Shown here piece by piece: positions 4,022-56,936 of a stretch of 64,000 bases of DNA (the stretch's first letter is position 1; each line of letters starts with the position of its first letter). The stretch covers positions 1 to 64,000 of the IMG/VR virus record IMGVR_UViG_3300034061_003397; one strand, given 5' to 3'. The translations under genes were made by a program, and so were the position numbers. The DNA comes from a virus. The notes under the pieces were generated by a model. The model did not search any database and was not told the origin of the DNA. It saw nothing but the letters and a program-made list of their open reading frames with translations.

Positions 4022-4513
4022 ATGGCAGAACTACTAAATCCATCAGAAATTTTTTATACAGCCTTTGAACCAAAGGTAAAAAATAGATTTATTCTATACG
4101 TTGATGGTATCCCATCTTTCGTCATCAAGAAATGTGATCGTCCAAAAATTACACAAGCTTCAAAAGAATTGGACCACATCAACATCAAGACCTACTACAA
4201 AGGTAAGACCACTTGGGGTACAATGACATTGGAACTATATGATCCAATCGTACCATCTGGTGCTCAAGCTGTAATGGAATGGGTACGTCTACACCACGAA
4301 TCTGTAACTGGTCGTGATGGTTATCAAGACTTCTATAAGAAGGACTTGACCATCAATGTTCTAGGTCCAGTTGGTGATAAGGTAGAAGAATGGACACTCA
4401 AGGGTGCCTTTATCACCGAAGCTACCTTCAATGAATTGGATTGGTCCAACGATGGTGATGCTGTAACAATCAGCATGACTATTCAACCAGATTATTGTAT
4501 TCTCCAATACTAA
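4022..4513 (+). CDS. gp19: Tail tube protein (T4 gp19-like), 163 aa
   Basis: Length (163 aa, as in T4 gp19) and sequence match the T4 tail tube family: an N-terminal region RFILYVDGIPSFVIKKCDRP, a central LELYDPIVPSGAQAVMEWV segment, and a C-terminal strand pattern ending in ISMTIQPDYCILQY. The tube polymerises inside the contractile sheath and conducts DNA. A clear Shine-Dalgarno AAAGGA precedes the ATG, and codon choice is biased toward C-ending codons more than in neighbouring genes, consistent with high expression. A strong terminator hairpin follows 21 nt after the stop. Confidence 0.9.
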   Translation: MAELLNPSEIFYTAFEPKVKNRFILYVDGIPSFVIKKCDRPKITQASKELDHINIKTYYKGKTTWGTMTLELYDPIVPSGAQAVMEWVRLHHESVTGRDGYQDFYKKDLTINVLGPVGDKVEEWTLKGAFITEATFNELDWSNDGDAVTISMTIQPDYCILQY

Positions 4514-4533
4514 TATTTTAGTCATATGTTTGA

Positions 4534-4561
4534 AACCCCACATTTATTTGTGGGGTTTTTT
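4534..4561 (+). terminator. Rho-independent terminator after the tail tube gene
   Basis: A perfect 9-bp stem (AACCCCACA with TGTGGGGTT), a 6-nt loop TTTATT and a run of six T form a textbook terminator at 4534-4561. It should isolate the very abundant tail tube mRNA from the downstream gene. Confidence 0.85.
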
Positions 4562-4570
4562 ATTTTACCA

Positions 4571-4578
4571 ATATTTAT
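4571..4578 (+). promoter_or_regulatory. ATATTTAT motif, candidate late promoter
   Basis: The octamer lies 4 nt before the ATG at 4583 and directly after a terminator, where a fresh promoter would be needed. Confidence 0.4.
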
Positions 4579-4582
4579 ATAC

Positions 4583-5362
4583 ATGGATCAAGTAACAGTA
4601 CTTTTACCAGGCGGATTTAAACCACCTCACATTGGACATCTAGGATTAGCTAACAAATTTGCTAGTCGTGGTGATGTAAAGAAAGTAATTGTGATGGTTG
4701 GACCAACTGAACGTGATGGTATAAATCGTCAACAGAGTTTAGCTATTTGGAACTTATTAACCAAGAATCCAAAAGTAGAAGTGGTAGCTGTACAAGATGA
4801 TAATCCAATGAACGCTGCGTTTGGATATGTGTTTAACTTACCAAGAAATAGTACAGAAACCGTTGCATTGGGTGCTAGTGCAAAAAGTCCAGAAGATGCA
4901 AAACGTAGTAAGATATTTGCGGCTGCTATTGAAAGATATAAAACAAAACCAACTAAAGATGGACTTTCGTCGCCAGTTGGTGTAAAAGTGGTAGATATGA
5001 CCGACGATTCTCCAAGTAATTATGTTGGTAGAACAGATGATAAAAATGGTCAAAGTATAAGTGCTAGTACTCTTAGACAAGATTTATCTAATAATGACTT
5101 TCAAAACTTTACAACAAACTATCCTGGTGTTAAACCACAAGTTGTAAAAAGTATATATAAAATTTTAAAACCTATGAATGAAGCAAAAAAACAAAAGTTA
5201 AAGTTTATCATTAAAAAAATGATAAAAGAAGAAGATGGTTTTATGGATGCGTTGGTAGGACCAGAATCCAAGTTTAAAGATGCTATAAATAAAATCAGAA
5301 CTAGAGCTGGCGTTCTTACAAAAACAGCTCAAGCTGCGCAGAAAGCTGCTAAAATTAAATAA
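4583..5362 (+). CDS. HIGH-motif nucleotidylyltransferase, 259 aa
   Basis: The N-terminus has LLPGGFKPPHIGHLGLANK, the HxGH motif of the cytidylyltransferase/NMNAT superfamily, and a later ISASTLRQDL matches the family's ISSTxxR motif. The enzyme should transfer a nucleotidyl group from an NTP to a phosphorylated substrate, releasing pyrophosphate. The frame extends upstream to an ATG at 4526, but that part is the translated terminator hairpin, so I use the ATG at 4583. Residues 205 to the end are a basic helical extension (KKQKLKFIIKKMIKEED). Its location inside a tail gene cluster is odd. Possible roles include NAD metabolism or sugar activation. Confidence 0.75.
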   Translation: MDQVTVLLPGGFKPPHIGHLGLANKFASRGDVKKVIVMVGPTERDGINRQQSLAIWNLLTKNPKVEVVAVQDDNPMNAAFGYVFNLPRNSTETVALGASAKSPEDAKRSKIFAAAIERYKTKPTKDGLSSPVGVKVVDMTDDSPSNYVGRTDDKNGQSISASTLRQDLSNNDFQNFTTNYPGVKPQVVKSIYKILKPMNEAKKQKLKFIIKKMIKEEDGFMDALVGPESKFKDAINKIRTRAGVLTKTAQAAQKAAKIK

Positions 5363-5407: not shown

Positions 5408-6220
5408 ATGAGTGACGAAATTTCTATTACAAGACAATCATCAGCAAACACCAAGCCATCTGCGCCAACATTTCCAACTGAAATCATTGACTTACCAAGT
5501 CAAGGTAGATTTTATCCATCAAACAGCAAATTGTCTACTGGACAAGTGGAAGTTAAGTTGATGACTGCTAAAGAAGAAGATATTCTTACCAGTCCAAATT
5601 TACTTAAAAAAGGACTTGCTGTAGAAAAGTTGATTGAATCCTTGATTGTTGATAAGGATATTGATTTGGATCAAATTCTTGTAGGTGATAAGAACGCATT
5701 GATTTTTGCAATCAGACGTTTGGCTTATGGTGACACATATGGTCCTGTAGAAATTACATGTCCAAAATGTTCTGCGGTAAATAAACAAAATGTAGATTTA
5801 TCAGAAATCAACTACAAGGAAATTGATTTTGATGCATACCCAAAAGGTGTAAATGAGTTTGAATATACGTTGCCAACATCAAAACTAACAATCAAATTTA
5901 AGTTATTGACTGCCGGTGATGAAAAGATGATTGAACGTGATATTGAAGGATTTGCAAAGTTAAAGAAGGAATCTTCAAGTGAAATAACCACCAGATTAAA
6001 GTATATGATTACCTCAATCAATGGAGATACTGATAAAGCCAAGATCAAATCTTTTATAGATAATAACATGTTGGCAAGAGATAGTAGTGCGTTTAGACAA
6101 CATGCAAAGGTTTTTTCTCCAGATGTTGATAGTCGATTTAACTTCTGCTGCACTGAATGTTCTAATCAAGAAAGGGTAGCCGTACCAATGACGGTCAGCT
6201 TTTTTTGGCCTAACTCCTGA
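5408..6220 (+). CDS. gp26: Baseplate hub assembly protein, gp26-like, 270 aa
   Basis: The pattern DLPSQGRFYP, LMTAKEEDILTSPNLLKKG and LIVDKDIDLDQILVGDKN is characteristic of the T4 gp26-type baseplate family. A probable zinc site is formed by CPKC in the middle and CCTEC near the C-terminus. T4 gp26 is about 208 aa, so this one is longer. The product would help assemble the central baseplate hub. It lies directly before a tape-measure gene. The last codons run through seven T residues (6200-6206), where a +1 shift would enter a second open frame coding for a gp51-like domain. The start is ATG at 5408 with no Shine-Dalgarno sequence. Confidence 0.75.
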   Translation: MSDEISITRQSSANTKPSAPTFPTEIIDLPSQGRFYPSNSKLSTGQVEVKLMTAKEEDILTSPNLLKKGLAVEKLIESLIVDKDIDLDQILVGDKNALIFAIRRLAYGDTYGPVEITCPKCSAVNKQNVDLSEINYKEIDFDAYPKGVNEFEYTLPTSKLTIKFKLLTAGDEKMIERDIEGFAKLKKESSSEITTRLKYMITSINGDTDKAKIKSFIDNNMLARDSSAFRQHAKVFSPDVDSRFNFCCTECSNQERVAVPMTVSFFWPNS

Positions 6221-6419
6221 GCACAGAGTTTATATACAACATGTAATTTTTGATTTGTGTTATTATGGTAATGGGTTTACCCCATCCGAAGTATACGCTT
6301 TACCTATTCATCTACGCAACTTTTATTATAAAAAACTCGTAGATGTTAAGGAAAAAGAGAATAAACAATCCGAATCTAAACCTGCCAAGTCTAAAATAGA
6401 TAAACCATCTTTTAGATAA
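6192..6419 (+). CDS. gp51: gp51-like domain in the +1 frame, probably made by frameshift from gp26
   Basis: This frame is open from 6192 to the TAA at 6417-6419 and has no usable start before a TTG at 6255. Its translation contains FFGLTPEHRVYIQHVIFD, then YYGNGFTPSEVYALPIHLRN and FYYKKLVDVKEKE, which resembles T4 gp51-type hub assembly proteins (short, basic-acidic helical tails). The upstream part that overlaps gp26 still reads as conserved protein. The simplest explanation is a +1 shift at TTT TTT TGG (6200-6208), giving a gp26-gp51 fusion. A one-base homopolymer error in the assembly would also produce this picture. A free 54-aa product from the TTG is possible but would lack the conserved start. 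Confidence 0.6.
   Translation, partial: RSAFFGLTPEHRVYIQHVIFDLCYYGNGFTPSEVYALPIHLRNFYYKKLVDVKEKENKQSESKPAKSKIDKPSFR
6200..6208 (+). promoter_or_regulatory. Candidate +1 ribosomal frameshift site (seven T then GG)
   Basis: In the gp26 frame this reads TTT TTT TGG. A forward slip of the Phe tRNA on the T run puts the ribosome in the frame of the gp51-like domain at GGC (6207). The two frames overlap by 29 nt before gp26 ends at 6220. Confidence 0.5.
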
Positions 6420-14712: not shown

Positions 14713-15095
14713 TTGATGACACACCAGTAAAAACGAGAAATATTGTTGGATTGGGTGGATACAATTACTTTATTCCAGCATCATATATTCCAACCATCAA
14801 ACCATCGGACTATGAATATGGTTATATAACCCGATATTTTGTTGGCAACATTAACTATTCTAATATAACCGAAACCAATGCTAGAGGTTATAATGGAACA
14901 AACTCTGGTTTTTTCAAAAAGACCAAAATAACTTGGAAAGTATCTGGGGTTGAGTTTAATGTGTACAAAGGAAAAATGCTTGAAACCACAGGCGTTGTAG
15001 ACTACAATATTCTCAGAATAAATCAAGCAGCTCAAGTGTTTCCTCAGATATCGACTATATTAAATAATCCAAGACAATTTTGGCGTGGATTTTAA
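14709..15095 (+). CDS. Hypothetical baseplate-cluster protein, 128 aa
   Basis: The ATG at 14709 overlaps the previous stop as ATGA and is preferred to an upstream ATG at 14643 that lies deep in the preceding gene. The protein is rich in Tyr, Asn and Gly (GYNYFIPASYIP, GYITRYFVGNINYS) and probably beta-structured. It ends with NNPRQFWRGF. It is the last gene of the tail cluster before a sigma70-type promoter, and its tight coupling to the hub-like gene suggests a virion part. No family recognised. Confidence 0.6.
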   Translation: MIDDTPVKTRNIVGLGGYNYFIPASYIPTIKPSDYEYGYITRYFVGNINYSNITETNARGYNGTNSGFFKKTKITWKVSGVEFNVYKGKMLETTGVVDYNILRINQAAQVFPQISTILNNPRQFWRGF

Positions 15096-15123
15096 TTGAC
15101 ATTCTAGAACATTTGTGTAAATG
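15096..15123 (+). promoter_or_regulatory. Promoter predicted to give a leaderless mRNA (TTGACA-N16-TAAATG-N7-GTG)
   Basis: TTGACA at 15096-15101, then 16 nt, then TAAATG at 15118-15123; the GTG at 15131 starts exactly 7 nt after the -10 box, where transcription should begin. The -10 box is a weaker match than in the two other cases with this layout (34451, 58659). Confidence 0.5.
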
Positions 15124-15130
15124 TTGTAGT

Positions 15131-16423
15131 GTGCATCTATCTAATCAAATATATCTAAAGTTTATAACTCAAAACACCAATAAGCATATTGCGTGTGATA
15201 AAGTTATTGCTGCATTTGTTTATGATTATATTACCAAAGAAAAGTATTACTTTAACTTTACACACCCAGATGTAAATGTTGATAGTACTTATGATAACTT
15301 TGTAAAGTTACTAAAAAAGACAGACCGAGAGATATATGTAAACAATAAGAAGAGATACAAGTATTTTCTTGGGGATTGTAATTTGATTGATGTAAATCTA
15401 TTCAGTTTCTTAAAAGACAATGAAGTACTTGTTAAAGAAGAATCAGATGCGTATTTTGCTATTAAGATTCGAACTGGAGATATTAATCAGTTCAATGTGA
15501 TATATCCATATGCAAATCATCAACGTGATTTTGATCAAGAACTTATTCATGTAGAAAGTCTAAATGTTGAAAACAAAGACTCTTATTGCTTTAAATTCTT
15601 CAATAACATCATTTCAGATACATTGTATGAGGTTGAAAAGAATGGTTTGAAATTAGATACAACCATTTTCAAAAACTACTTCAAAGCAAAAACACACAAC
15701 AAGTTTGTATATACAGAGTATAATATATATAACCCTACAGGTAGACCCAGTAATCACTTTGATAGTGTTAATTATGTTGCACTAAACAAAGAGGATGGTT
15801 GTAGAAAGAGTTTTATATCCAGATATGATGATGGATATCTGATGATGGTAGACTTTACTGGATTTCATCCTTATATTGTGGCTAATCTTATTGATTATAA
15901 GGTTCCCGACACAGAAACCATTTATGAACATCTGGCTAAACAATATTACAATATTGACCAAGTTGATTCAGAATTGATGTCAAAATCTAAGAAACTCACG
16001 ATGGTTAACTTGTACGGTCAGATTAAAGATCAATATCTAAACATTCCGTTTTTTGCAAAAACCGATGAATTAAAGAACAAGTATTGGGAAATGTTTGAAA
16101 AAAAGGGATATGTTTCTACTCCGATTTATAAACGGAAAATCACATCAAAACACATCAGTGATCCTAATAAAAACAAGTTATTTGCATATATCATTCAGGC
16201 TACAGAAACCGAATATGGATTGAATAGCTTGGGTAATGTATTAAAATATGTAACTGATAAGAAGATTGTACCAATATTGTATGTATACGATTCTATTGTA
16301 TTTGATGTAAGTCCAGAGGTTGATGAACACACAATACAAGATGTTATTGACATAATTAAGAATAAAAAGTTCAAAGTTAAGGTATATACTGGAAATAATT
16401 ACAACGATTTGAAATTACGTTGA
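15131..16423 (+). CDS. Compact family A DNA polymerase-like protein, 430 aa
   Basis: The C-terminal 220 residues align by eye with the palm and fingers of Pol I: NPTGRPSNHFDSVNYVAL (TGRLSS...NLQNIP box), CRKSFISRYDDGYLMMVDF with the motif A Asp, SKSKKLTMVNLYG for the O-helix K...YG, a YIIQATETEYGL helix, and VYDSIVFDVSP for motif C (Pol I has HDE). Both catalytic Asp residues are present. The N-terminal 200 residues show no clear 3'-5' exonuclease motifs and the thumb seems reduced. Start: the frame is open from a TTG at 15080, but GTG at 15131 fits the promoter. The window also codes for a family B polymerase, so this one may serve repair, priming or gap filling. Confidence 0.6.
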   Translation: MHLSNQIYLKFITQNTNKHIACDKVIAAFVYDYITKEKYYFNFTHPDVNVDSTYDNFVKLLKKTDREIYVNNKKRYKYFLGDCNLIDVNLFSFLKDNEVLVKEESDAYFAIKIRTGDINQFNVIYPYANHQRDFDQELIHVESLNVENKDSYCFKFFNNIISDTLYEVEKNGLKLDTTIFKNYFKAKTHNKFVYTEYNIYNPTGRPSNHFDSVNYVALNKEDGCRKSFISRYDDGYLMMVDFTGFHPYIVANLIDYKVPDTETIYEHLAKQYYNIDQVDSELMSKSKKLTMVNLYGQIKDQYLNIPFFAKTDELKNKYWEMFEKKGYVSTPIYKRKITSKHISDPNKNKLFAYIIQATETEYGLNSLGNVLKYVTDKKIVPILYVYDSIVFDVSPEVDEHTIQDVIDIIKNKKFKVKVYTGNNYNDLKLR

Positions 16424-37373: not shown

Positions 37374-37747
37374 AACAACTTCTTAATAATTAAATAAATA
37401 GTTAAACTAGATATATAATTAATAGGAAATATCAACAAACCATATATTTGACTATAACCAACACTATATACTAACAGATTAGATGTTATTAGTGTTGACC
37501 AAAAGCATAAACAAATTGGACAAGATACTAATTTAGTAAAGTAACCCGGATATATACTATGTAGAAAATCTGGATAATTAGACATCACATCAACTTCCAT
37601 TTTGTATTTATAAAACTCGTTTATCTTCAACAAGTTTCGTGTATTGGTTAGATTTGCAATGGTTTGGACAATATCACTTTCAAACCACACCACCATTATA
37701 AATGATATCCAGAAGATTAAGGGAATATTAAAATCTGTTAAGTTCAT
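37370..37747 (-). CDS. Membrane protein with CPICLCFW motif, 125 aa
   Basis: Two or three hydrophobic segments are visible (residues 8-24, 85-100 and 105-122), with a central SCPICLCFWSTL motif of the kind found in small DUF1360-like membrane proteins. The cysteines may form a metal site at the membrane surface. It lies between a glycosyltransferase and a small unknown gene, all with 4-nt overlaps. It could anchor a glycan enzyme complex. Function unknown. Confidence 0.55.
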   Translation of the reverse strand: MNLTDFNIPLIFWISFIMVVWFESDIVQTIANLTNTRNLLKINEFYKYKMEVDVMSNYPDFLHSIYPGYFTKLVSCPICLCFWSTLITSNLLVYSVGYSQIYGLLIFPINYISSLTIYLIIKKLL

Positions 37748-38961
37748 AGTGTTTGTTTAATTAATAGTTTCTTTTTATACCAATCATTGTTTGTATCGAT
37801 CAGATTATTTTTATAATCAATCAATTTATTAACTTTGATCTTGAAAATATCATATTCCATGATACCAATCTGACCACTATCTTCCAACATTAATTGGATC
37901 ATATTGAAAAACTCAAAAGATTTATTGGTCAACTTTGTAGCATCAAACTCAACTAATACATCGTTTGTACGTTGATCCTCTAGACTTTTTAGTTTCTTTG
38001 AAATGTCAATGCGTGTATTTTTTTGTTCTACGTTCATATAACGTTCATATGGTGCATCAGAATAGATGGTATCACACCAAGGTTCTAATAGAAGCAGTTT
38101 ATATTCATCAATATTCATGACTACAAAACCAACGTCATATCTATTTGGAACGATTGGTTTCATTGTATCATTGTGCTTTACAAAGTGACCCCATTTACGA
38201 ATAAAGTTTCTGGCACTCTTGACGTTTTGATTTTGCCACTCTTCACTATCCTTTCCGATTGAAGTAATGGTTGGATTGAATCTACTACCTCTACAAGTTA
38301 AGTGATAGACACAAGCTTCCCATAGTTGGATAAACTTGTATCCACTCAATAAAAATCTATTGAATATATCGCTGTCTTCTTTGGAGGTTGGTGCAAACAA
38401 CAAATCATGTCCACCTATCTTATTAAAGTCTTCCTTATAAATTGCCCATGGAGCAAACACACCTTCTGTAACCTTTTCTTTGCGAGATAATTTTGTGTCA
38501 ACCATCCACTTGTCAAACGCTTGTTTTTTAAAGTTCTCTGGTTCCATACCAAAGTCTTGAACGATCTTTTCTGGTCCACCGGGATGAAGTGGTGGTTCTA
38601 TACGAGTCAAACATACAACGGTCTGTGGTTTGAGATGTTTTTCAATTAATAGATCTGCGTTCTTTGAAATATACATGTCGGCGTGATAAATCATAACAAC
38701 ATCGTTGGTAGCCACATCTTGGACTAATGTGTTATATAGTTCGGTCATACCCTTTCTAGCTGGTCCATCATTACGGATGGCTCTGAAACATGGATCTGAT
38801 TTAATCATTTCTTGACACCAATCCCATGTTCCGTCACTACTAGCGTCATCTGCAACGCATACTTCGTGTTCTTTGTGACTTAAATTTGAACGTAGTGATT
38901 CGTAACACCACTTCAAGTATTTTAGATTGTTTCTTGCGGGTATAACCAGACTAATATTCAT
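37744..38961 (-). CDS. Family 2 glycosyltransferase, 405 aa
   Basis: The GT2 start LVIPARNNLKYLKWCYESL is followed by VCVADDASSDGTWDW and the DXD-like IYHADMYIS. This is a GT-A inverting transferase. The C-terminal 150 residues are helical and charged and may bind an acceptor or partner. It is downstream of an HNH endonuclease gene with an ATGA overlap. Likely role: adding a sugar to a phage or host glycan. Confidence 0.8.
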   Translation of the reverse strand: MNISLVIPARNNLKYLKWCYESLRSNLSHKEHEVCVADDASSDGTWDWCQEMIKSDPCFRAIRNDGPARKGMTELYNTLVQDVATNDVVMIYHADMYISKNADLLIEKHLKPQTVVCLTRIEPPLHPGGPEKIVQDFGMEPENFKKQAFDKWMVDTKLSRKEKVTEGVFAPWAIYKEDFNKIGGHDLLFAPTSKEDSDIFNRFLLSGYKFIQLWEACVYHLTCRGSRFNPTITSIGKDSEEWQNQNVKSARNFIRKWGHFVKHNDTMKPIVPNRYDVGFVVMNIDEYKLLLLEPWCDTIYSDAPYERYMNVEQKNTRIDISKKLKSLEDQRTNDVLVEFDATKLTNKSFEFFNMIQLMLEDSGQIGIMEYDIFKIKVNKLIDYKNNLIDTNNDWYKKKLLIKQTL

Positions 38962-39554
38962 AATTTAATGTTTTTACTTTTTTTGTGATTTTCTACGGCT
39001 GATATAAAACGTAAATTGTTGATATTTCCTATTTCTTCGGGAGGTATATTATTTTTATAACCATATATTATTGGTTTTATATGATCGATGTGAAAAGCAT
39101 TTTTATCTATATCAACTCGTGTTCTTTTACAACGATTATAACCATCTAACAAATGTAAAGGCTGTGATTCGGTTATTTTCCAAACTTTTTTATAATAATT
39201 GATTTTATTTATATCTTCGTTGATATATGCGTGTTTAGTTCTACATAACATACTACAATACTTTCCAGTATATTTTCGTTTACCAACCGCCTTATAGGAG
39301 TTTCCGCAATATATGCATTTTTTTATAGTTGCGTTTTTAAAATTCCAAGGTTGTCTGCCTTTTAGAGAATCGGAAATTTTTTGTTTGTGTGTGTTAGGCA
39401 TTCCATTACGAAATTGAAAAATAGTACCACAATTCTTAGAACAATATTTCTTTTTTGTTTGGTATGTGTTCCAACTCATGGTTTTTGATTTTTCCATGAT
39501 CAAACCACAATTTTTACACTTTTTTAATTTTGTAGAAGATTCAATTGGCCGCAT
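38958..39554 (-). CDS. HNH homing endonuclease, 198 aa
   Basis: The C-terminus has the HNH core FHIDHIKPIIYG...NINNLRFISAVENHKKS. Two zinc-ribbon-like pairs (CKNC...CSKNC and CIYC...CSMLC) and a NUMOD3-like MPNTHKQKISDSLKGRQPW precede it, a typical DNA-recognition layout for free-standing phage homing nucleases. It is probably a selfish gene that copies itself into related phages by double-strand break repair. It is set in the glycan operon with an ATGA overlap to the next gene and a 37-nt gap before it, and it is markedly AT-rich. Confidence 0.85.
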   Translation of the reverse strand: MRPIESSTKLKKCKNCGLIMEKSKTMSWNTYQTKKKYCSKNCGTIFQFRNGMPNTHKQKISDSLKGRQPWNFKNATIKKCIYCGNSYKAVGKRKYTGKYCSMLCRTKHAYINEDINKINYYKKVWKITESQPLHLLDGYNRCKRTRVDIDKNAFHIDHIKPIIYGYKNNIPPEEIGNINNLRFISAVENHKKSKNIKL

Positions 39555-39591
39555 ATTAATATATATCTACTTGGTAAAATAAAACTAATTT

Positions 39592-40179
39592 TCATCTTTT
39601 AATACATATCAGATAACCACCCGATTTCTCCACGGTGAATAGTTTATTTAATTTCTCAATCCACCAACTTTCTGGTTTAACTGTCATATGAAGTATTACC
39701 CCATTTGTATCTTCACCTGATTGTCTATATGTAATAGAAAACACACATCTATTTTTAACAACTCGGTTCATTTCTGCAAAAATTACATCTATATCGTTTT
39801 CTAAGCAGTGTTCTAAACAATCAAATGATGTTATTATATCAATAGAGTTATTTTCAAAAGGAATATGATGTGATTCACCATCTATAAATTGGATGTTTGG
39901 ATTATTGATAACATTGCCGGTTTTTACTGAAGCAATGTCCATACCATATACTTTTTCAATACCTGACTTTTGTACATCATTACAGAAGTATCCAAATCCA
40001 CATCCTATGTCTAAAACTGATGTGGGTTTTAAGCTCAAAATGTGTGGGATTATGTTTTTTCCAAAATGTCCTCGGCCATATCCTCTAGAATCATTTCTTT
40101 TTCTATAGTGTTGATCTTTATCTACATAAATAGATTCATACTTATCTCGTTCTAGTTTTCTTAGTTCTTCTATATTCAT
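39592..40179 (-). CDS. SAM-dependent methyltransferase (class I), 195 aa
   Basis: Motif I is SVLDIGCGFGYFCNDV, motif II VYGMDIASV, and a later DIITSFDCLEHC is the acidic motif with an acceptor-like pair. This is a small-molecule or sugar methyltransferase. The ATG at 40179 forms an ATGA overlap with the preceding stop and is better than an upstream ATG. In a glycan operon it probably methylates a sugar hydroxyl. The target is unknown. Confidence 0.8.
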   Translation of the reverse strand: MNIEELRKLERDKYESIYVDKDQHYRKRNDSRGYGRGHFGKNIIPHILSLKPTSVLDIGCGFGYFCNDVQKSGIEKVYGMDIASVKTGNVINNPNIQFIDGESHHIPFENNSIDIITSFDCLEHCLENDIDVIFAEMNRVVKNRCVFSITYRQSGEDTNGVILHMTVKPESWWIEKLNKLFTVEKSGGYLICIKR

Positions 40180-41006
40180 ATTAAACCGCTTTCTTTGAAT
40201 CTTGTTGACCAACCTAAAAATGTACTTCTACTATTTCCATACATGTTTGTTTTAGACAATATCAACATCTCTATAAATGCTTCTATAATTGAAAATTCAT
40301 TTCTAGACGCATTATAGTTCCAACGTCTATTATCACTATCTATTACCTGACCATTCCAACCAGCTGCTGGATTTTGTTTTTCTGTGTAATGTGATTTATT
40401 GTAAAATACTAAATTTTTATTGGGTTTTAAAAAGTCTTCAACTGCTTTTTCATCTGTACATATAAAAATACGTTTTGTTGGATTATTTTTAATGAAGTTA
40501 TATGCGTAATGAATATTTTCGTCTCTTGATGGAAAATCAGAAGCACGGATGTGAAGACCCAAAGTATTGTTGTCAATATTATTATCAGATACAAATTTAT
40601 TAACTTTATCTTTGATTGTAGAATTAATTTTTAAACGACTATAACAAGATTTTAGATCTTCCGGGGTAACACTAAGTCTATCATTTAATAATAAGAATGT
40701 TGAATCTTTGCCGGTAGGTTGATTTAAAAATACCTGTCTGTTGTATTTTAAATCTTTTCGGTGTGCGTATAATGGTATAGATGGTTCTAATTTTTTATCT
40801 AACTCGGTGATTGTGTTTTCAATATATGTAAAATTAAAATCAAACAATAATCTTAAGTCAAAATCTGTAGATCGATTTCTTACATTATTTACAACTAAAT
40901 CTTTATGATAAAAATTTGAAAAATATATTCCTTGAAATAATCCATTAAATTTATTTCCCAATCCACCATCCATTATCACTATTACAGCATTATTATAATT
41001 TAACAT
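40176..41006 (-). CDS. Fucosyltransferase-like protein (GT11/GT23 type), 276 aa
   Basis: The N-terminus GGLGNKFNGLFQGIYFS and the HIRASDF motif (HxRxxD) are features of GDP-fucose alpha-fucosyltransferases and their relatives. A serine/asparagine-rich C-terminal region (NMYGNSRSTFLGWS) carries the SxxS acceptor/donor loop. It is the middle member of a set: similar genes are at 41000-41785 and 51141-51971. Expected activity is transfer of deoxyhexose to a glycan. Confidence 0.65.
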   Translation of the reverse strand: MLNYNNAVIVIMDGGLGNKFNGLFQGIYFSNFYHKDLVVNNVRNRSTDFDLRLLFDFNFTYIENTITELDKKLEPSIPLYAHRKDLKYNRQVFLNQPTGKDSTFLLLNDRLSVTPEDLKSCYSRLKINSTIKDKVNKFVSDNNIDNNTLGLHIRASDFPSRDENIHYAYNFIKNNPTKRIFICTDEKAVEDFLKPNKNLVFYNKSHYTEKQNPAAGWNGQVIDSDNRRWNYNASRNEFSIIEAFIEMLILSKTNMYGNSRSTFLGWSTRFKESGLI

Positions 41007-41785
41007 ATATGAATATTTTCGTTACATCCACCAAAATACCATGCTAATTCTGAAAAAGTACTCACAGAATTGAGTATCATATGATTTCCTTTAGATAATA
41101 ACATCATATCTGTGAAATCGTCTTCAAATGTTCTTCGTGAGTTTTTTTCAATGTAATTAATAAAAGTTTTGTTTGGACATGATTTTTTTATAATATCCGA
41201 CTCAGATTGAGAGTCAGTTGATATAAATATTTTTTTGTCTGATAAATTATTAATATAATCAATACATCGTTGACGGCCATGATCTATCCATGTTTTATTT
41301 CTTGTAGATGCGTGTCTTGATGATTTATCATTGACAAAATTATCTGCGTTAAAACTTCGAATATGAACAGAACTATAGTTTCCGTGGTTTTTAACAAATT
41401 CATTTACTTTGTGTTCAATTATCGCATTAGGACGAAGATTTTGTCCGATTAATTTTACTATTTTCAATCTAAATGATATCGGTATTCTTAGATATTCAAA
41501 ATCAATGTTTCTACCAAACTCGTCACAATGATCAAAATCCTGATTTTTTAGGGTTACACGACAAAAATTGTCAGGAATTTCTGTATCTGATTTTAAAACA
41601 ATAATTCTCCACGTATTGATAGGAATATATTTTATACTAGTATCTTTGATACATATAGACTGGTTTCTAAAAATATTTTCAAAATATGGTAAGTGTGCTT
41701 TTGATTCTGGATGCAACCTAATTGCTGAGATAAACTTTTTTATCTGATTACCAATCCCACCACCACCTGTTGTTATATAAGGCAT
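41000..41785 (-). CDS. Fucosyltransferase-like protein, 261 aa
   Basis: It starts MPYITTGGGGIGNQIKKF (the GGxGNQ motif of GT11-type enzymes) and contains VHIRSFNADNF, the HxR donor-binding motif, plus a NSVSTFSELAWYFGG C-terminal loop. Its domain order parallels the neighbouring gene, suggesting duplication and divergence. Overlap with that gene is 7 nt. The donor sugar is presumably GDP-linked, but this is inferred from the family. Confidence 0.65.
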   Translation of the reverse strand: MPYITTGGGGIGNQIKKFISAIRLHPESKAHLPYFENIFRNQSICIKDTSIKYIPINTWRIIVLKSDTEIPDNFCRVTLKNQDFDHCDEFGRNIDFEYLRIPISFRLKIVKLIGQNLRPNAIIEHKVNEFVKNHGNYSSVHIRSFNADNFVNDKSSRHASTRNKTWIDHGRQRCIDYINNLSDKKIFISTDSQSESDIIKKSCPNKTFINYIEKNSRRTFEDDFTDMMLLSKGNHMILNSVSTFSELAWYFGGCNENIHIC

Positions 41786-41788
41786 ATA

Positions 41789-42667
41789 TCAACTGCGTTT
41801 AATTAATAGATTTGACTTTTGTAAAGATGTATTTAAACTTTTGTACTTTTCTTTGCTTTTTTTATACAAGCATATGAAATTTCCTCCCTGGTTTGCACCT
41901 TTATAGAATAATTTTTCAAAATGATGTTCTTTTAAATAACAATCCAGAATATCTGGATCACATACTTCGTATGGATAACCACCCAGCCAGTCTATACAAT
42001 CGTTGTATTTATTCATACCTCGGCTATTGATGGAATTAATATCTATTCCACGGGAAATATAATGATAGTTCAACCAGTCGTATATCATTCTTTTCTTTAT
42101 ATCATCTTTATTTGCATTATAACATACTTTTAATTTTAAATCATCCATATATCTATCACCACTGATATAAAGAGCCAAATGAAGAATGCCATTATCATTT
42201 ACCATAGATGTTGCATTTTTGATAGCTTTCCACATATCTCCGGTGTGGTGTAAAACGCCCCAGGAATAAACAATATCATACTTTTTAGAAGTTTTTACAT
42301 ATACATCATTCAATATAGATTGATGTTTAATATTCCAATTATGATTTGAAACCAACTTATGAAAAAACTTTTCTTTGGTTAGATTACAAGCTTCTACTGA
42401 ATTTGTATCTACATCAATAGAATCCACTTGTTTACAACCAAGTAGATTAAACGATAGAGATGAAAGACCGGATCCACACCCAATATCTAACACCGATTTA
42501 TCCGTAAAATCATAATCTTTATAGTAGCTTGACAGATTTGACATGTGAGTGTGTATGATATCATCTGTAAGTTTTGATTTAACATAATCGATCCAGTTTA
42601 ATCCAAAGGAAAACTGATCATTTTCTGACATTGTATCTATTTGTTTAACGAAGTCTTCAAAATTCAT
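41789..42667 (-). CDS. SAM-dependent methyltransferase, 292 aa
   Basis: Motif I DIGCGSGLSSLSFNLLG, motif II DSIDVDTNSVEACN and a later YSWGVLHHTGDM identify a class I methyltransferase. The C-terminal 110 residues are an extra domain with a NDCIDWLGGYPYEVC segment, often seen in glycan-linked enzymes. The ATG at 42667 follows an AATAATATG junction with the upstream gene. Likely substrate: a nucleotide sugar or glycan intermediate. Confidence 0.75.
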   Translation of the reverse strand: MNFEDFVKQIDTMSENDQFSFGLNWIDYVKSKLTDDIIHTHMSNLSSYYKDYDFTDKSVLDIGCGSGLSSLSFNLLGCKQVDSIDVDTNSVEACNLTKEKFFHKLVSNHNWNIKHQSILNDVYVKTSKKYDIVYSWGVLHHTGDMWKAIKNATSMVNDNGILHLALYISGDRYMDDLKLKVCYNANKDDIKKRMIYDWLNYHYISRGIDINSINSRGMNKYNDCIDWLGGYPYEVCDPDILDCYLKEHHFEKLFYKGANQGGNFICLYKKSKEKYKSLNTSLQKSNLLIKRS

Positions 42668-42668
42668 A

Positions 42669-43307
42669 TTATTTTTTAGTAAAAAATGACCAATTCCACA
42701 TGCTTTCAAATACCAAATTATGACTCTTTTTTAATTCAGATGTTATATTTGTGTGTAGTACATCGCTATTGTTTACAAAGTCATGAAACTGAATTTGAAG
42801 ATGTTTTATCTTATTTATATAACCACTATTAATTATATGCGGTAATATTTCATATTCTATTCCCTCAATATTAATTTTTAATAAATCAACATGATCATAT
42901 TCATTTAGTATTTGAACTACATCACGAATAACAATTTTTTCAAGTGGTTCATGTGCATATTTAGCAACATTACGTTGATACGAATCATTTTTATCATTCT
43001 TTTTCTTTTGTTCAGCATACTCTCTGATTGAACTACCTTCGTCACATACGTGAATGTGCGTTGTTCCATTCATCGTACTTACGCCACAATTAAATGGAAT
43101 CAAATTTGGGTTTTTCTTTTTAACAATTTGTTGATAATAACGATTTACCGCTTCATAAACATAAACTCTACATCCATATTTAGATGCAATATTTTCAGCA
43201 AATCCGCCTGTAAAACCACCAAAGTCTAGTACAATACTATTTTTGTTTAGATCATAAGTATAACGCATATTTTCATACGTGGCGTTCCACGAACCTCTTG
43301 TTTTCAT
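42669..43307 (-). CDS. FkbM-family methyltransferase, 212 aa
   Basis: VLDFGGFTGGFAENIASKYG is motif I, followed by VYVYEAVNRYYQ (the E of motif II), and VDLLKINIEGIEYEILPHI is the FkbM signature (xKxxxEGxExxIL). FkbM enzymes methylate hydroxyls of sugars or polyketides. It is coupled to the amidotransferase gene upstream by an ATGA overlap. Confidence 0.8.
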   Translation of the reverse strand: MKTRGSWNATYENMRYTYDLNKNSIVLDFGGFTGGFAENIASKYGCRVYVYEAVNRYYQQIVKKKNPNLIPFNCGVSTMNGTTHIHVCDEGSSIREYAEQKKKNDKNDSYQRNVAKYAHEPLEKIVIRDVVQILNEYDHVDLLKINIEGIEYEILPHIINSGYINKIKHLQIQFHDFVNNSDVLHTNITSELKKSHNLVFESMWNWSFFTKK

Positions 43308-44623
43308 AATAAATTTTTATTTGCTTGAAACCCAATTTTTTTATTTTGTTCAAACGGAAAATTGTTTTCCAATAAATATTCGTGGATCACATGCTTATAC
43401 TTTTTATTTTTTACGTCAGACGACAAATTCAAATACTCTTGGACCAACTCTAAATCCAAGAATGGATATCTAGATTCAATACCAAATGAACCAGCAACAT
43501 ATTCTTCTTTAGAAATATAAAGTTCTTGGGTACCTTTAAAGAAGTTTCTCCAAGGAAACACGGATTTTAGATTAGATGGGAACTTACCACCAAATGTACT
43601 ATGGCCATAGATTTTATTGCCGTTCATACCATAGTCTGAAATGATCTCATCAGCACCTTGACCAGAGATGTATATTTTTCTACCATCTTTTTGAGCCAAT
43701 GTACAAATGTGAGCCAATCCATAACACGCTTTATCAGATCGTATATTTGTACCTAAATCCTCAGATATAAAATCCTCACATTTATTACCAAATAGTGTAG
43801 ATGAGTAGTATTCGTATTCGTTCTTTTTTAAATTAATTAATTCGGCATTTTTAATTAATTTGAATCTTTGATTAATTATATCTATATTTTCCGATGCAGC
43901 TACACTATAAGCTTTGTAATCTATGCCTGTTTTATTCAATGCACAACTTATGATGCCACTATCATATCCACTACTAAGTCCAATAAAAAATTTTTTGTCC
44001 GCAGAAAACTTTGTTCTTTTTTCTATAGCCTTGTCAAACTTATATATCCAACTATCTACATTTGGTTTGTACTGATCTAAATTAAAATTGGTTATGGTTC
44101 TAGTTGACAACTGACCAGATCTAATATCATAGATATAAGTTGTATTTGCTTCCACTTTATTTGCTCGTTTAAAATTTGATAATAAAATAGGAGTGGTATA
44201 TGTAGAAACTGAGATAGATTTATCATCAATACTATAAAATAGTGGTTTGGTTCTGAATGTATCTGATGAAAAGATGATTCGTTTGGTATTCAAATCCAAG
44301 ATCAAAATGGCATATTCACCATCTAATTTACTAGTAAACTCTGGACCATACTTCTGATACAGATCTATAATAACTTCACTATCACACTTTGCATTTGAAT
44401 CAAAGTCTTTGAAATTATAAATTTCTCCATTAAACAACACATAAATGTTATTTTTATCGAGAGGTTGTGATGTAAATTGACCTGTTAAACTTAATAAATT
44501 ATGAATTAAAGTATAATTTTCAACTTTTATCACATTGGTATAGTCTGGCCCTCTAGGTTTCAAAAACTTGTTTAGTTCTTCCAGATTACCGAGATATTGA
44601 TTACTAAAATAAAAGCTACACAT
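43304..44623 (-). CDS. Asparagine synthase-like glutamine amidotransferase, 439 aa
   Basis: It begins MCSF, so Cys2 is available as the Ntn glutaminase nucleophile. RGPDYT and LFNGEIYNF are the class II glutaminase motifs, and IGLSSGYDSGIIS is the PP-loop of the synthetase domain, followed by YISGQGADEIISDYG. At 439 aa it is shorter than cellular AsnB (about 550). In a glycan operon the likely use is amidation of a sugar carboxylate (for example a uronamide) rather than asparagine supply, but either is possible. Confidence 0.75.
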   Translation of the reverse strand: MCSFYFSNQYLGNLEELNKFLKPRGPDYTNVIKVENYTLIHNLLSLTGQFTSQPLDKNNIYVLFNGEIYNFKDFDSNAKCDSEVIIDLYQKYGPEFTSKLDGEYAILILDLNTKRIIFSSDTFRTKPLFYSIDDKSISVSTYTTPILLSNFKRANKVEANTTYIYDIRSGQLSTRTITNFNLDQYKPNVDSWIYKFDKAIEKRTKFSADKKFFIGLSSGYDSGIISCALNKTGIDYKAYSVAASENIDIINQRFKLIKNAELINLKKNEYEYYSSTLFGNKCEDFISEDLGTNIRSDKACYGLAHICTLAQKDGRKIYISGQGADEIISDYGMNGNKIYGHSTFGGKFPSNLKSVFPWRNFFKGTQELYISKEEYVAGSFGIESRYPFLDLELVQEYLNLSSDVKNKKYKHVIHEYLLENNFPFEQNKKIGFQANKNLL

Positions 44624-45306
44624 TAGAGAATCGATTTTAGACTATTTAGTCTGTGGTTCAACAATTGCACAGCATCCCCAATTTTATGTCCTTTAAAATG
44701 TAAAATTCTTGCTTCAGGCGGAGTTGACTGAAAATTAATACAATTGATTGTTGTTTCTGGGATTTCTTGTATTAAGATTTTATCTTTCATTGACGGAATT
44801 GTACGAACCAAAGCCGTAGTTTCTCTTGGTACAGTTGGTATTTTACTCATGTTGTCTCTCCAAACATCAATAAATTCTAAACAAGCCTTTGGTTTAATTA
44901 AACCAACGAACGATGCTATATATGGAGACGTATGTACACGTTTCGTAACAGCTATATCTTTGGTCATATCTATGACATCAATAAACTCATGTAAAAAGTA
45001 ACAATCAACGTCTATTAAAAATATAGGATTGTCCTTTTTAGTAGCTAAGTCACGTAAGAACTGAGTTTTAAGATCAATATTTTTTTGCCATCCCTCATCC
45101 CATATATTTTTTGTAGTAATAGATCCATGGTATTTGGCAATTTTAACTCGGTTGTTATTGAAGATCGGATCTTCTTTGAAATTTTCACCAGTATATAATA
45201 CAATTAGTTCGGTCATGCCGTTACACTTTTCAAGAGCCGATTTTGTAAAATAATATAAAAAATCCCAATATATGTCATTAACGACGGTGCAAATAGTATA
45301 ATTCAT
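44623..45306 (-). CDS. Glycosyltransferase (GT-A type), 227 aa
   Basis: A strand-rich start (YTICTVVNDIYWDFLYYFTK) and the DXD motif IFLIDVDCYFLH identify a nucleotide-diphospho-sugar transferase. The C-terminal ARILHFKGHK fits the metal-coordinating HxxG/H element of several retaining GT-A families. It overlaps the amidotransferase start by one base. Confidence 0.7.
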   Translation of the reverse strand: MNYTICTVVNDIYWDFLYYFTKSALEKCNGMTELIVLYTGENFKEDPIFNNNRVKIAKYHGSITTKNIWDEGWQKNIDLKTQFLRDLATKKDNPIFLIDVDCYFLHEFIDVIDMTKDIAVTKRVHTSPYIASFVGLIKPKACLEFIDVWRDNMSKIPTVPRETTALVRTIPSMKDKILIQEIPETTINCINFQSTPPEARILHFKGHKIGDAVQLLNHRLNSLKSIL

Positions 45307-45308
45307 AA

Positions 45309-46079
45309 TTATGTATATAACTTCTTATAGGTTTTGTTCATATAGTGTTCAACCTTTGTACCATAACTAGTATCGGGAATGCCATTAAAATGATAAACCC
45401 AACCATAATCTGTAAACACCAAATCATCAGTCAATCCTTCAGTTAGAAATAATCCCATCATGTTATACTCATATGGTAAGATGTTTACATCAATGTTTCT
45501 CATTTGTAGTAAGAAATTCATTGGTGTTTGATCTGTACCCAACTTGATTGTGGATTCTAATTGATAGATGCGTTCACGATTTTCAAGATAAAATTGCTTG
45601 AGATAATCTAAATGTTCTTTATGTGATTCATTGAATATTTGAAATCCACCATTGATATACTTCCAAATATCTAACTTATAATCATTAAATAATAACTTGC
45701 TATAACACTCTGTACTACGAATAACCCATTCATATACAACACCATCATGTACACCTGTATATTTGTTGTTGGTCATTTCAAAGAAGTTAGGACAATTTGG
45801 ATGTACAATAGTGTCTGCATCAACGATCAATACTTGATTATACTTAATATTGCTTTGTTCCAACAAGTCCAACGCATAATAACGTTGCCACGCCAAACTA
45901 GTAACATTGGTATCCATCAATGGTTCGTCAAGTACAACAACTTGACAATCATGTTTTTTAGCAAAATGCTTCCAACTATTTATGCTATATTCGTAAATTT
46001 TATTAATCAGTGGAGTATTACGAAGCTTCTTTTCGTTGTTAGAAGAAACAACGGCTGGTATTAAAATGACATTTTTCAT
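45309..46079 (-). CDS. Glycosyltransferase (GT-A, DXD), 256 aa
   Basis: VLIVDADTIVHPNCPNFFEM carries the DAD motif, YINGGFQIFNESHK the acceptor loop, and YGWVYHFNGIP the C-terminal His metal ligand. The ATG at 46079 overlaps the upstream stop as ATGA. It is clearly paralogous to the next gene upstream (46076-46837), with the same motif order. Confidence 0.75.
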   Translation of the reverse strand: MKNVILIPAVVSSNNEKKLRNTPLINKIYEYSINSWKHFAKKHDCQVVVLDEPLMDTNVTSLAWQRYYALDLLEQSNIKYNQVLIVDADTIVHPNCPNFFEMTNNKYTGVHDGVVYEWVIRSTECYSKLLFNDYKLDIWKYINGGFQIFNESHKEHLDYLKQFYLENRERIYQLESTIKLGTDQTPMNFLLQMRNIDVNILPYEYNMMGLFLTEGLTDDLVFTDYGWVYHFNGIPDTSYGTKVEHYMNKTYKKLYT

Positions 46080-46837
46080 TTGTAGAATTGATTTATATTG
46101 TTCCAAACATCATTGATTAAATTGTTTCTGTCTTGAATAGGAAAACCTGTAAAGTGCCAGATATAACCATACTTAAATAAAAATGTGGTTTTATCATCCA
46201 ACTTATCATTATGCCAAAGCATTCCTTTTTTTATCATGCCAACCGTATTCCAACAATATGGAAGTGTTTTTCTTTTGATACCTTCTTTAACCAAGAACAA
46301 ATTCAAGATGGATTGTTCTTTACCAACACCTGGAACACTCCAGTTATCCATTTTGTCTTTGTTGGTCAAATAAAAATTCTTGAGCTTTTCAAAAAATGGT
46401 TTGTGTGATTTATGAAAGAATAATACTCCACCATTAATATATTGAGATAATGTCATGGGAACATCAGACAACTCTTCAAATGAAGATCTAAAAGCCTTTA
46501 GACTTTTATCAATCCACTGAATCGAAACATTATCCAATACACCGCAGAATTCATCGTCGTATAAATCAAAGATGTTAGGAGCATCCCACTTGATCATTGT
46601 ATCAAAGTCAACCACACCTATTTTTTCATAACTATCTCCTACGTAGTCAAATACAAATTCTTTGTGCCAAACACTATACTTAACGTCTGGTCTTTTGCTT
46701 CTGATTACATAAAAGTCAATATTATGCTTGTCACAATAATATTGCCAACTATTGATGGTGTGTTCAAAATAAGTTTTATGAGAATGTTTAGACAATTCAT
46801 CCTCAATAGCGACCATTAATATACAATTCTTAGCCAT
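46076..46837 (-). CDS. Glycosyltransferase (GT-A, DXD), 253 aa
   Basis: IGVVDFDTMIKWDAPNIFDL has the DFD metal motif, YINGGVLFFHKSHKPFF the acceptor loop, and YGYIWHFTGFP the C-terminal His. It is a paralogue of the adjacent gene, suggesting that two related sugars or linkages are added in sequence. It overlaps the dehydrogenase gene by 8 nt. Confidence 0.75.
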   Translation of the reverse strand: MAKNCILMVAIEDELSKHSHKTYFEHTINSWQYYCDKHNIDFYVIRSKRPDVKYSVWHKEFVFDYVGDSYEKIGVVDFDTMIKWDAPNIFDLYDDEFCGVLDNVSIQWIDKSLKAFRSSFEELSDVPMTLSQYINGGVLFFHKSHKPFFEKLKNFYLTNKDKMDNWSVPGVGKEQSILNLFLVKEGIKRKTLPYCWNTVGMIKKGMLWHNDKLDDKTTFLFKYGYIWHFTGFPIQDRNNLINDVWNNINQFYK

Positions 46838-47636
46838 TTCGTTTTACCATTTGTTCGTTACTCTTTAATACGGTCTTCAAGATGGATAGATCCACACCAA
46901 GTTTATCACCATATCCAACCATAGCCTTTGTATCTTTTGGTAAACACTTGCCACCAAAACCACGTTCATTAGCAAATACAGCTGTGTGAGACTTGTTGGT
47001 TCTTGGATCTAACAACCATAGATCACGTACTTCACTCCAATGAGTACCACTCTTCTCGCACAAATCATATAGTTCATTTACAAACGCAACCTTCATTGCG
47101 AAGTAAGTGTTTTCTACATACTTGGTGATTTCTGCACTAATACTATCTGTGACACGATATGTTTTGCTTGGTCCAGTGATTGGCATATAAATGTCAACCA
47201 ATCTATGTCCAACTGATTTATCATCTGAACCAAAAATAAAGAATGGGGTTTGTTTAACATCAGTTGTAAAACCTTGTGGAGTCCAATATTTGGACTCACC
47301 AGCAAACTCTGGACTAAATACAATCTTCTTGTTATACTTTTCAATCAACTTACGAGTTGTACCAATTTCAATAGTTGACTTGATGAGAATAATAGGATTG
47401 GTCATCCATGATACAGATTCTTCAACAATACTTGTATCACAACTACCATCAGTATTTGATGGGGTTGGTACACAAACCACACCCAATTCACATTGATTAA
47501 TTTCTTCCTTGGATACAGAGTTTGGATAAAGTGGATCACGAATTACAACCTCATAATGGTCTTTGAAAAACGCATGAAATGCTTTTCCTACATATCCATA
47601 ACCAACGATACCAATTTTAGTTTTTGATTTGCTCAT
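46830..47636 (-). CDS. UDP-glucose/GDP-mannose dehydrogenase-like enzyme, short form, 268 aa
   Basis: The Rossmann motif IGIVGYGYVGKAF, the VCVPTPSNTDGSCDT loop, and FSPEFAGES with the catalytic Cys in GFGGKCLPKDTKAM identify the NDP-sugar dehydrogenase family that makes UDP-glucuronate-type sugars. At 268 aa it lacks most of the C-terminal UDP-binding domain of the usual 400-450 aa enzyme. It may be a minimal active form, act with a partner, or be degenerate. A uronic acid product would suit the amidotransferase in the same operon. Confidence 0.8.
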   Translation of the reverse strand: MSKSKTKIGIVGYGYVGKAFHAFFKDHYEVVIRDPLYPNSVSKEEINQCELGVVCVPTPSNTDGSCDTSIVEESVSWMTNPIILIKSTIEIGTTRKLIEKYNKKIVFSPEFAGESKYWTPQGFTTDVKQTPFFIFGSDDKSVGHRLVDIYMPITGPSKTYRVTDSISAEITKYVENTYFAMKVAFVNELYDLCEKSGTHWSEVRDLWLLDPRTNKSHTAVFANERGFGGKCLPKDTKAMVGYGDKLGVDLSILKTVLKSNEQMVKRNG

Positions 47637-48567
47637 ATATTGTTTTCCAATTATCTAACCACTTTTGTTCTGTATAATATATTTGATATAATTCTCTAGA
47701 TTGTTGTGAACACGAATTATAAAAAGAAATGTCGTCTTTAAGTTTATTTGCTAGCTTTTTTGCTTGTTCAATATCACCAATATCCACAGATAACTCTGGG
47801 TGTAATATTTGTTGTGTATCTAATCCTTTATATCCAATACATGGTATACCTAGATATGCACAATTGAGAGCAAAAGTACCAGCTGCGTGAGTACGCATCA
47901 AATGTATACCCACATTAAAATTAGCGAGTGCTTTAATCCATTCATTCCACATCATGTATGGTAAATGATGTAAACTAGGAAATTGATCTTCGTTTTCTAT
48001 TTTACGACCCATACTTGGTATAAAGATGGGTTTGTTGAATACTTGCGCTACAAAGTAACTATCTATACCACCATACCAACTACAAAAGTTACCACCGATA
48101 ATAGGCATCTTGTTGTTTTCACGGGGTACATCTTTGATAGTATCTTCAATCATAAGAGATTGTAGATTGAATGAAGGTTTATTAAATATACCCTTGAAAT
48201 ATGGAATATCGCTTTTGTTATGAACCAACAAGAAATCCATCTCACTTAGAAAGTTAATATAATTAACTTGATTAATATAATTATAGTCTTGATAGTACCA
48301 AGCTGGACCTTCTTGCATTACAGTTACTTTTTTACCCCATTTCTTGACACTTTTTAATAATAAGTTTGTGTCAATTATTTCAAGTTTTTTGGGTGGAATT
48401 ACAACGATTAGGTCATAACTTTTATCATTGGTATAAGAAAACCACTCTTGGAAATTGTAGTGATCGGCATTTAAAGCAATTTGCCAAGCAAACTCTGTTC
48501 TGCAATTTACAAAATTTCTTGGTAGTTTTCCACTATGACCATTTTGACTAATAAAACAAATGTTCAT
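47617..48567 (-). CDS. GT-B-type glycosyltransferase, 316 aa
   Basis: The fold is suggested by an N-terminal Rossmann strand (NICFISQNGHSGKLPRNF) and a C-terminal HAAGTFALNCAYLGIPCIGY region similar to the donor-binding half of GT-B enzymes, though the exact family is not clear. The last 60 residues are a helical cap. It overlaps the dehydrogenase gene by 20 nt. Confidence 0.6.
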   Translation of the reverse strand: MNICFISQNGHSGKLPRNFVNCRTEFAWQIALNADHYNFQEWFSYTNDKSYDLIVVIPPKKLEIIDTNLLLKSVKKWGKKVTVMQEGPAWYYQDYNYINQVNYINFLSEMDFLLVHNKSDIPYFKGIFNKPSFNLQSLMIEDTIKDVPRENNKMPIIGGNFCSWYGGIDSYFVAQVFNKPIFIPSMGRKIENEDQFPSLHHLPYMMWNEWIKALANFNVGIHLMRTHAAGTFALNCAYLGIPCIGYKGLDTQQILHPELSVDIGDIEQAKKLANKLKDDISFYNSCSQQSRELYQIYYTEQKWLDNWKTIYEQIKN

Positions 48568-49130
48568 ACTTCAATACAAATTACTCCTTCCCAATCATGT
48601 AGTGGTCTGGTGAACTTTTCTTCATCACTATGACCAATCTTGACAATTGGTTTAATGACATTTTTGTCAAAAAGATCATTGAGTGAGTTGATAATTTCTG
48701 GATAAGCACCTACATCGTCAAAGATGAAGTACTTCTTACCGTCTGATTTTAACTTTAAGGCGTTATATACGTCTATTTGGACGGCATCATAGGTGTGGAG
48801 AGCATCCACCATAATTACATCGGCAGTATCAACAGGAAGCCCATATTTGTATACATCTTGACCAAAGAACTTGACGTTGGTTCTACCATTTCGTTTGCAA
48901 AACTCATCTGCCTTGTCAAATTCCTTTTCATTGATTCCATATACTTGGTTAAATAGGTAACTTAAAATAAAAGTGGTATAACCCAAATTGGATCCAATTT
49001 CCAAAGCAGTTTTGTTTTTAAACTCGGGTTTATTGAAGAATGTAAACACATCACGTTTAAACTTCTTGGAAGTAGTAGTTTTATGTTCAAACTTATCTGG
49101 CACTAAATTTAGGATTTCATCTATAGTCAT
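48564..49130 (-). CDS. SAM-dependent methyltransferase, 188 aa
   Basis: TALEIGSNLGYTTFILSYLF is motif I, VYGINEKEFDKADEF motif II, and VIMVDALHTYDAVQIDVYN with FIFDDVGAYPE gives the acidic metal-type motifs found in Methyltransf_24-like enzymes. The start forms an ATGA overlap with the preceding gene. Confidence 0.75.
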   Translation of the reverse strand: MTIDEILNLVPDKFEHKTTTSKKFKRDVFTFFNKPEFKNKTALEIGSNLGYTTFILSYLFNQVYGINEKEFDKADEFCKRNGRTNVKFFGQDVYKYGLPVDTADVIMVDALHTYDAVQIDVYNALKLKSDGKKYFIFDDVGAYPEIINSLNDLFDKNVIKPIVKIGHSDEEKFTRPLHDWEGVICIEV

Positions 49131-52639: not shown

Positions 52640-52640
52640 A

Positions 52641-53938: not shown

Positions 53939-53939
53939 A

Positions 53940-55283: not shown

Positions 55284-55284
55284 A

Positions 55285-56933: not shown

Positions 56934-56936
56934 AAA

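Follow-up and report, generated by a model that had tools for sequence, protein, structure and literature searches.

A gp26-like gene of T4-like phages with a conserved overlapping frame, read as a tail assembly chaperone gene with a probable +1 ribosomal frameshift

In a stretch of viral DNA of 64,000 nucleotides (IMG/VR record IMGVR_UViG_3300034061_003397, positions 1 to 64,000; hereafter the window), a single gp26-like gene very probably makes both forms of a tail assembly chaperone by means of a +1 ribosomal frameshift. A second, overlapping frame is under coding selection and is joined to the first at a slippery site, as in G/GT-type chaperones. This reading rests on a conserved frame and site, coding selection, gene order and homology, from which we infer that slippage takes place in the cell, with what efficiency, and which partners the two forms would bind. 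Two-form tail helpers are already known, and the +1 direction is what distinguishes this T4-like branch from its better-known relatives.

A gp26-like gene with an open +1 frame

The gp26-like protein matches PF12322 with 46.2 bits, above the curated cut-off of 24.5, in agreement with the gp26 assignment of the original prediction. Its ORF ends in AGC TTT TTT TGG CCT AAC TCC TGA, where the T run is exactly seven bases long (6200-6206). The +1 frame is open from 6192 to 6416 (75 codons) and closed by a stop at 6417-6419, and TTG 6255 is its sole ATG, GTG or TTG codon; the site, the extent of the open frame and the late TTG had all been described correctly from the sequence alone. The predicted products are 270 aa for the short form and 336 aa for the long form. 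In other genes of the window, which has a GC content of 33%, open 72-codon stretches in the +1 frame occurred in 3 of 5840 comparable cases, so the open frame is more than would be expected by chance. No phage tRNA genes were found in the window.

Purifying selection was seen in the +1 frame only, and among close relatives the other two frames gave the opposite pattern. In this frame, the window differs from contig L009 with a dN of 0.006 and a dS of 0.76, and from contig L010 with a dN of 0.015 and a dS of 0.47. The low dN/dS, together with conserved residues after the slip, confirms the initial impression that the overlapping part reads as conserved protein (Table 1).

Table 1. Features of the chaperone gene and its neighbours in the window
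Feature	Position	Strand	Evidence
Tail tube gene, gp19-like	4022..4513	+	PF06841 E 3.8e-7; phrog_4542 tail tube E 5e-31
gp26-like gene, short form, 270 aa, TAC-N-like	5408..6220	+	PF12322 E 5.7e-12; phrog_150 baseplate hub E 1e-13
Stop codon closing the +1 frame just upstream of the slip site	6189..6191	+	translation
Slip site TTT TTT TGG	6200..6208	+	YUU_U in 93/95 non-redundant relatives
Long-form +1-frame coding part, 70 residues + stop, predicted three-helix domain	6207..6419	+	same frame in 152/152 loci where detected; dN/dS ~0.01-0.03; model
Tape measure gene, 763 aa	6445..8736	+	blastp E 2e-11 to annotated tape measure protein of Flavobacterium phage immuto

The ORF that follows the chaperone gene is the tape measure gene, in the place where it had been predicted, and the order tube, chaperone, tape measure is consistent with a role in tail assembly; the analogy with tail assembly chaperones thus holds up. 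The gp19-like tube protein would be a client of the long form. Between the tail tube and chaperone genes lies an ORF (4526-5362) that is weakly cytidylyltransferase-like (PF01467, just below the cut-off). Elsewhere in the window, about 20 ORFs lie one after another on the minus strand (37747-57479), each roughly 180-450 aa long; checks on two of them identified a family 2 glycosyltransferase and an asparagine synthase-like protein, which suggests that this stretch of genes may be a phage-borne sugar or surface-polysaccharide cluster. Two further ORFs, 15080-16420 and 60287-62944, match DNA polymerases of different families (phrog_17 and phrog_262).

Conservation of the slip site and of the shifted frame

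Using the +1 domain and gp26 as queries, we gathered 160 IMG/VR loci and several named phages, aligned both proteins to every locus and tallied the frame of the downstream domain. The domain was detectable in 152 loci, always in the +1 frame relative to gp26, and 15 loci contained gp26 only, most of which still had the slip site. Among 95 non-redundant representatives (gp26 <90% identical), cultured Microcystis and Flavobacterium phages among them, the site variants were TTTTTTTGGCCT (n=71), TTTTTTTACCCT (n=9), TTTCTTTGGCCT (n=7), TTCTTTTGGCCT (n=3) and five single variants. The P-site codon was TTT in 85, CTT in 8 and CTA in 2; the A-site codon was TGG in 84, TAC in 10 and TTC in 1; and the codon in the +1 frame was GGC in 82 and ACC in 10. 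YUU_U was therefore retained in 93. The other two have CTA_U, and its poor pairing after a forward slip counts against the +1 model. The homopolymer was intact in the window and in 82 of the 95. The originally proposed +1 slip on the T run is thus supported both by the tally of frames and by YUU_U, which is conserved more widely than the seven-T run.

The site is also present in isolates, namely Microcystis phage Mel-JY01 and Rhodothermus phage RM378, both with seven T, and Flavobacterium phage immuto (TTTCTTTGG), and the contigs L007-L012, with gp26 90-100% identical to that of the window, have the same seven-T run. In RM378, near 4663-4877, the gp26-like gene has TTTTTTTGG, and its +1 frame is open for 73 codons. 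The shifted domain of this phage matches neither the +1 nor the -1 profile; the gene after its gp26-like gene is the tail tube gene, on the other strand, and no tape measure gene is evident.

Given that TTT makes up only 79% of Phe codons elsewhere in these genes, its use in 85 of 85 cases at the site is unexpected (P ~1.6e-9, ignoring kinship). CCT comes next in 93 of the 95 representatives, compared with a background of 30%, and the 0-frame stop is conserved, 2-5 codons on. Since both frames constrain the same bases, codon bias at the slip site is by itself no proof; it agrees with the remaining evidence. Shine-Dalgarno (SD)-like tetramers upstream of the slip were enriched but not universal (35/95, against a background of 15%), and no strong downstream RNA fold was found in the +1 group (mean z -0.56 vs -0.08). 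With these weak signals, a universal upstream SD or downstream RNA structure was rejected as stimulator.

Alternative explanations for the two frames

The T run might act during transcription: if RNA polymerase dropped one U (or added two) there, some mRNAs would encode the long form in one frame, and a seven-T homopolymer in the window and most representatives suits such slippage. We consider this unlikely, given that the run is broken in 13 of the 95 representatives (e.g. TTTCTTTGG in the isolate immuto, and TTCTTTTGG) with the +1 domain still in place, and that seven T is short for efficient polymerase slippage. Less likely still is a -2 ribosomal frameshift at the same site, adding one Phe. 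The run would permit it, and -2 shifts are known in tail genes of phage Mu, but the variants TTC TTT TGG and TTT CTT TGG spoil -2 re-pairing and keep +1 re-pairing; because these variants retain YUU_U, the +1 ribosomal shift is favoured.

We regard as similarly improbable that the downstream frame is a separate small gene, started from TTG 6255 or by termination-coupled reinitiation, even though small separate genes are annotated in relatives (immuto_232, Mel-JY01 and P-SSM2 gp51) and some start codon is found upstream in 36 of 90 complete representatives. TTG 6255 falls within the conserved domain; relatives do not share it, and initiation there was rejected on that ground. In the other 54 representatives, the +1 frame has no ATG, GTG or TTG at or before the slip, 24 of the 90 have no ATG in that frame at all, and none of the relatives compared revealed an ordinary, shared ATG start for the gp51-like frame. 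Conservation begins at the slip, where the residues that directly follow are GL, TL or GI in all 54 start-less representatives, and in T4 gp51 the corresponding tail continues in frame from a gp26-like domain. Finally, homopolymers are prone to sequencing error, but the splitting of one continuous gene by a sequencing or assembly error is excluded for practical purposes, because the same seven-T run is present in L007-L012 and in distant isolates (Mel-JY01 and RM378), and it is further opposed by the conserved 0-frame stop, by the conserved broken-run variants and by the lack of six- or eight-T runs among the relatives compared.

Proposed mechanism

For the favoured +1 ribosomal shift, we propose that most ribosomes would translate 5408-6220 and release the 270-aa short form. 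A fraction of them would pause with tRNA-Phe on UUU (6203-6205) in the P site while the A-site codon, UGG, is still unread, and the P-site tRNA-Phe would then move one base forward to re-pair with the overlapping UUU at 6204-6206. GGC (6207-6209) would be the next codon in the new frame and translation would go on to 6416, giving a product of 336 aa with an additional three-helix domain. If lambda G/GT is a guide, the product of the next gene, the tape measure protein, may be coated by the gp26 part, and the additional domain may bring in the gp19-like tube protein; in lambda, contact with the tape measure is made through the G part and contact with the tube protein through T (PMC5009743). Judging by T4 gp51 and lambda, the two-form protein is probably absent from the virion: gp26 and gp51 of T4 appear among the listed hub assembly chaperones, and the particle lacks gp51 even though this protein is required (PMC3004832).

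Relatives with -1 sites or duplicated genes

Among named phages, a PF12322 search picked up two copies each in T4 and Campylobacter phage CP220, and a single copy in P-SSM2, Syn9, S-PM2, HTVC008M, KVP40, Aeh1, phiM12, phiW-14, Vi01 and others. In single-copy phages outside the clade of the window, gp26 ends in a -1 heptamer, TTTTTTC or TTTTTTT (93 of 96 loci), and the small domain is encoded in the -1 frame after it. Canonical U_UUU_UUC or U_UUU_UUU followed by a 'short gp51' in the -1 frame was seen in Aeh1, KVP40, HTVC008M, phiM12, phiW-14 and cyanophages (L189-L191). Mean downstream RNA folding in the -1 group was above background (z -1.88 vs -0.72). T4 and CP220 have a second, in-frame gp26-like gene bearing such a C-terminal tail. 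Few relatives came from IMG/VR searches with T4 gp51 and with KVP40 gp26.

Related shifted domains were also seen in other contexts. In Vi01, the domain is in the -1 frame at a different, putative site, GAA ATT TTC ATT. In two Firmicute phages it is in the +1 frame, near the candidate sites TTT TTT AGT ACC CGA (LIS04) and TTC TTT CGT CCC CGA (GXN1), and the shifted domains of both phages match the +1 as well as the -1 profile.

Homology, phylogeny and structure

The +1 and -1 domain profiles matched each other with hhalign E-values of 4-8e-7 (score 37.4; the highest score among 100 column shuffles was 18.4), and the -1 profile matched the C-terminus of T4 gp51 (E 2e-8). The direct profile match between the +1 domain and T4 gp51 was not significant, though in the same register, and direct homology was rejected as a stand-alone claim. 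Given that the match to T4 gp51 runs through the -1 family, the shifted domain is gp51-like by transitivity only, and the part of T4 gp51 to which it corresponds is the C-terminal tail only (about residues 200-249). T4 gp51 is itself a PF12322 protein (E 3.9e-52), and T4 gp26 and gp51 match each other by blastp (2e-6), so they are paralogues. Because gp51 consists of a gp26-like domain plus the tail, the long form is the counterpart of T4 gp51 and the short form that of T4 gp26. The gp26-gp51 fusion originally proposed is accordingly right as regards a gp51-like tail, recognized via the -1 family, and wrong if taken as two complete T4-type proteins, T4 gp51 already containing a gp26-like domain.

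In the gp26 tree, all +1 sequences fell into one group (100/94), apart from the -1 sequences and most of the duplicated ones; the two Firmicute sequences (LIS04 and GXN1) stood beside the +1 group, and several branches were long. The fusion was modelled with unfused gp26 sequences, and its shifted part is of low confidence for that reason; the shifted domain was also modelled apart. A mixed alignment of gp26 and short sequences was poor and was left out. The gp26 part gave a good model, in which most of residues 21-260 had block means of about 90 or higher, and this model matched T4-like baseplate hub proteins in BFVD. A fold search in the PDB gave weak matches only, including the HK97 tail assembly chaperone 2OB9 (gp13), whose match was very weak (E 4, probability 0.21, TM 0.49 by target). 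Modelled alone, the shifted domain is predicted with fair confidence to be a three-helix unit, and a fold search with this model gave no clear match.

Comparison with known systems

The tail assembly chaperone genes of T4-like phages were identified by Vladimirov, Gautam and Davidson (2022, Virology 566:9-15), as cited in PMC10885494 and PMC12846349. PRFect cites that work for T4-like phages in which a short gene is accompanied by a fused long one, and PMC12846349 cites it for -1 poly-T signals. Given these credits in the citing papers, the duplicated form, and probably the -1 form, was already known. The link between gp26/gp51 and lambda G/GT that the original prediction suggested therefore holds, but, as far as the citing papers convey, it is not new.

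T4 gp26 and gp51 share with the gene of the window the PF12322 family and the combination of a short form with a long form whose C-terminal extension is related through the -1 family, but T4 and CP220 use two paralogous genes where the window uses one gene and a +1 shift. Cyanophages, KVP40, Aeh1, phiM12 and phiW-14 are closer in layout, with one gp26 gene, an overlapping frame encoding a related helical domain and a poly-U slip site that falls at the same place in the protein. They differ in direction, shifting -1 at U_UUU_UUC/U with some downstream folding, whereas the clade of the window would shift +1 at YUU_U; its site is not a canonical -1 site (X_XXY_YYZ), the domain being in the +1 frame in every locus where it was detected. 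Lambda G/GT also shifts -1 and has no detectable sequence similarity, and the roles of the two forms of the window are assigned by analogy with it.

Among +1 systems, the RF2 (prfB) slip element is CUU_U, or UUU_U in a few species, and the Ty1 site of yeast is CUU_AGG_C, in which the +1 codon GGC matters (PMC5009743). In RF2, the P-site YUU slips to the overlapping UUU, the same kind of slip as in the window clade, and Ty1 has GGC as its +1 codon, as does most of the clade. The A site holds UGA in RF2 and AGG in Ty1, but a sense UGG or UAC (UUC once) in the clade, which lacks a universal internal SD; the site is thus not of the RF2 type, which combines an A-site stop with an internal SD. Tail chaperone genes of other viruses have also been suspected of +1 shifts, that of the haloarchaeal virus HSTV-2 being one example (PMC5009743), and a two-gene form of the tail chaperone has been described in Bacillus phage 0305phi8-36.

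Implications for the chaperone family

Our literature searches, in which Vladimirov et al. (2022) was represented by papers that cite it, found no earlier report of a +1 clade of T4-like phages and no description of its slip site or of a three-way switch within one family. We think it somewhat more likely than not that a whole clade of T4-like phages shifts the opposite way at the equivalent position of this chaperone gene, by the RF2-like slip codon YUU_U with a sense UGG or UAC in the A site and GGC or ACC as the favoured +1 codon, and with neither a stop nor a universal stimulator, and that -1 shift, +1 shift and gene duplication are interchangeable as means of setting the form ratio.

These data also bear on annotation. 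Cyanophage gp51 has been described as about 20% of the usual length and lacking the first 200 residues, gp51 has been reported missing in Aeh1, and the short gp51 was viewed as a reduced gene (Sullivan et al. 2010, PMC3037559). Considering that the -1-frame domain of P-SSM2 is annotated as gp51 and that Aeh1 encodes the gp51 domain in its -1 frame, where no early ATG is present, both the 'reduced' cyanophage gp51 and its reported absence in Aeh1 may be read as frameshift-encoded domains. The annotation problem is widespread, the shifted domain being called as a truncated small gene or missed altogether.

As the +1 and -1 domains and the T4 gp51 gene are related, one family would contain three solutions to the same task, and it offers a comparative system: within a single homologous chaperone family, the two forms would arise by a shift of -1, by a shift of +1 or from separate genes. 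Because all three occur in one family, the form ratio required by the tail and the gain, loss and reversal of frameshift sites should be directly testable.
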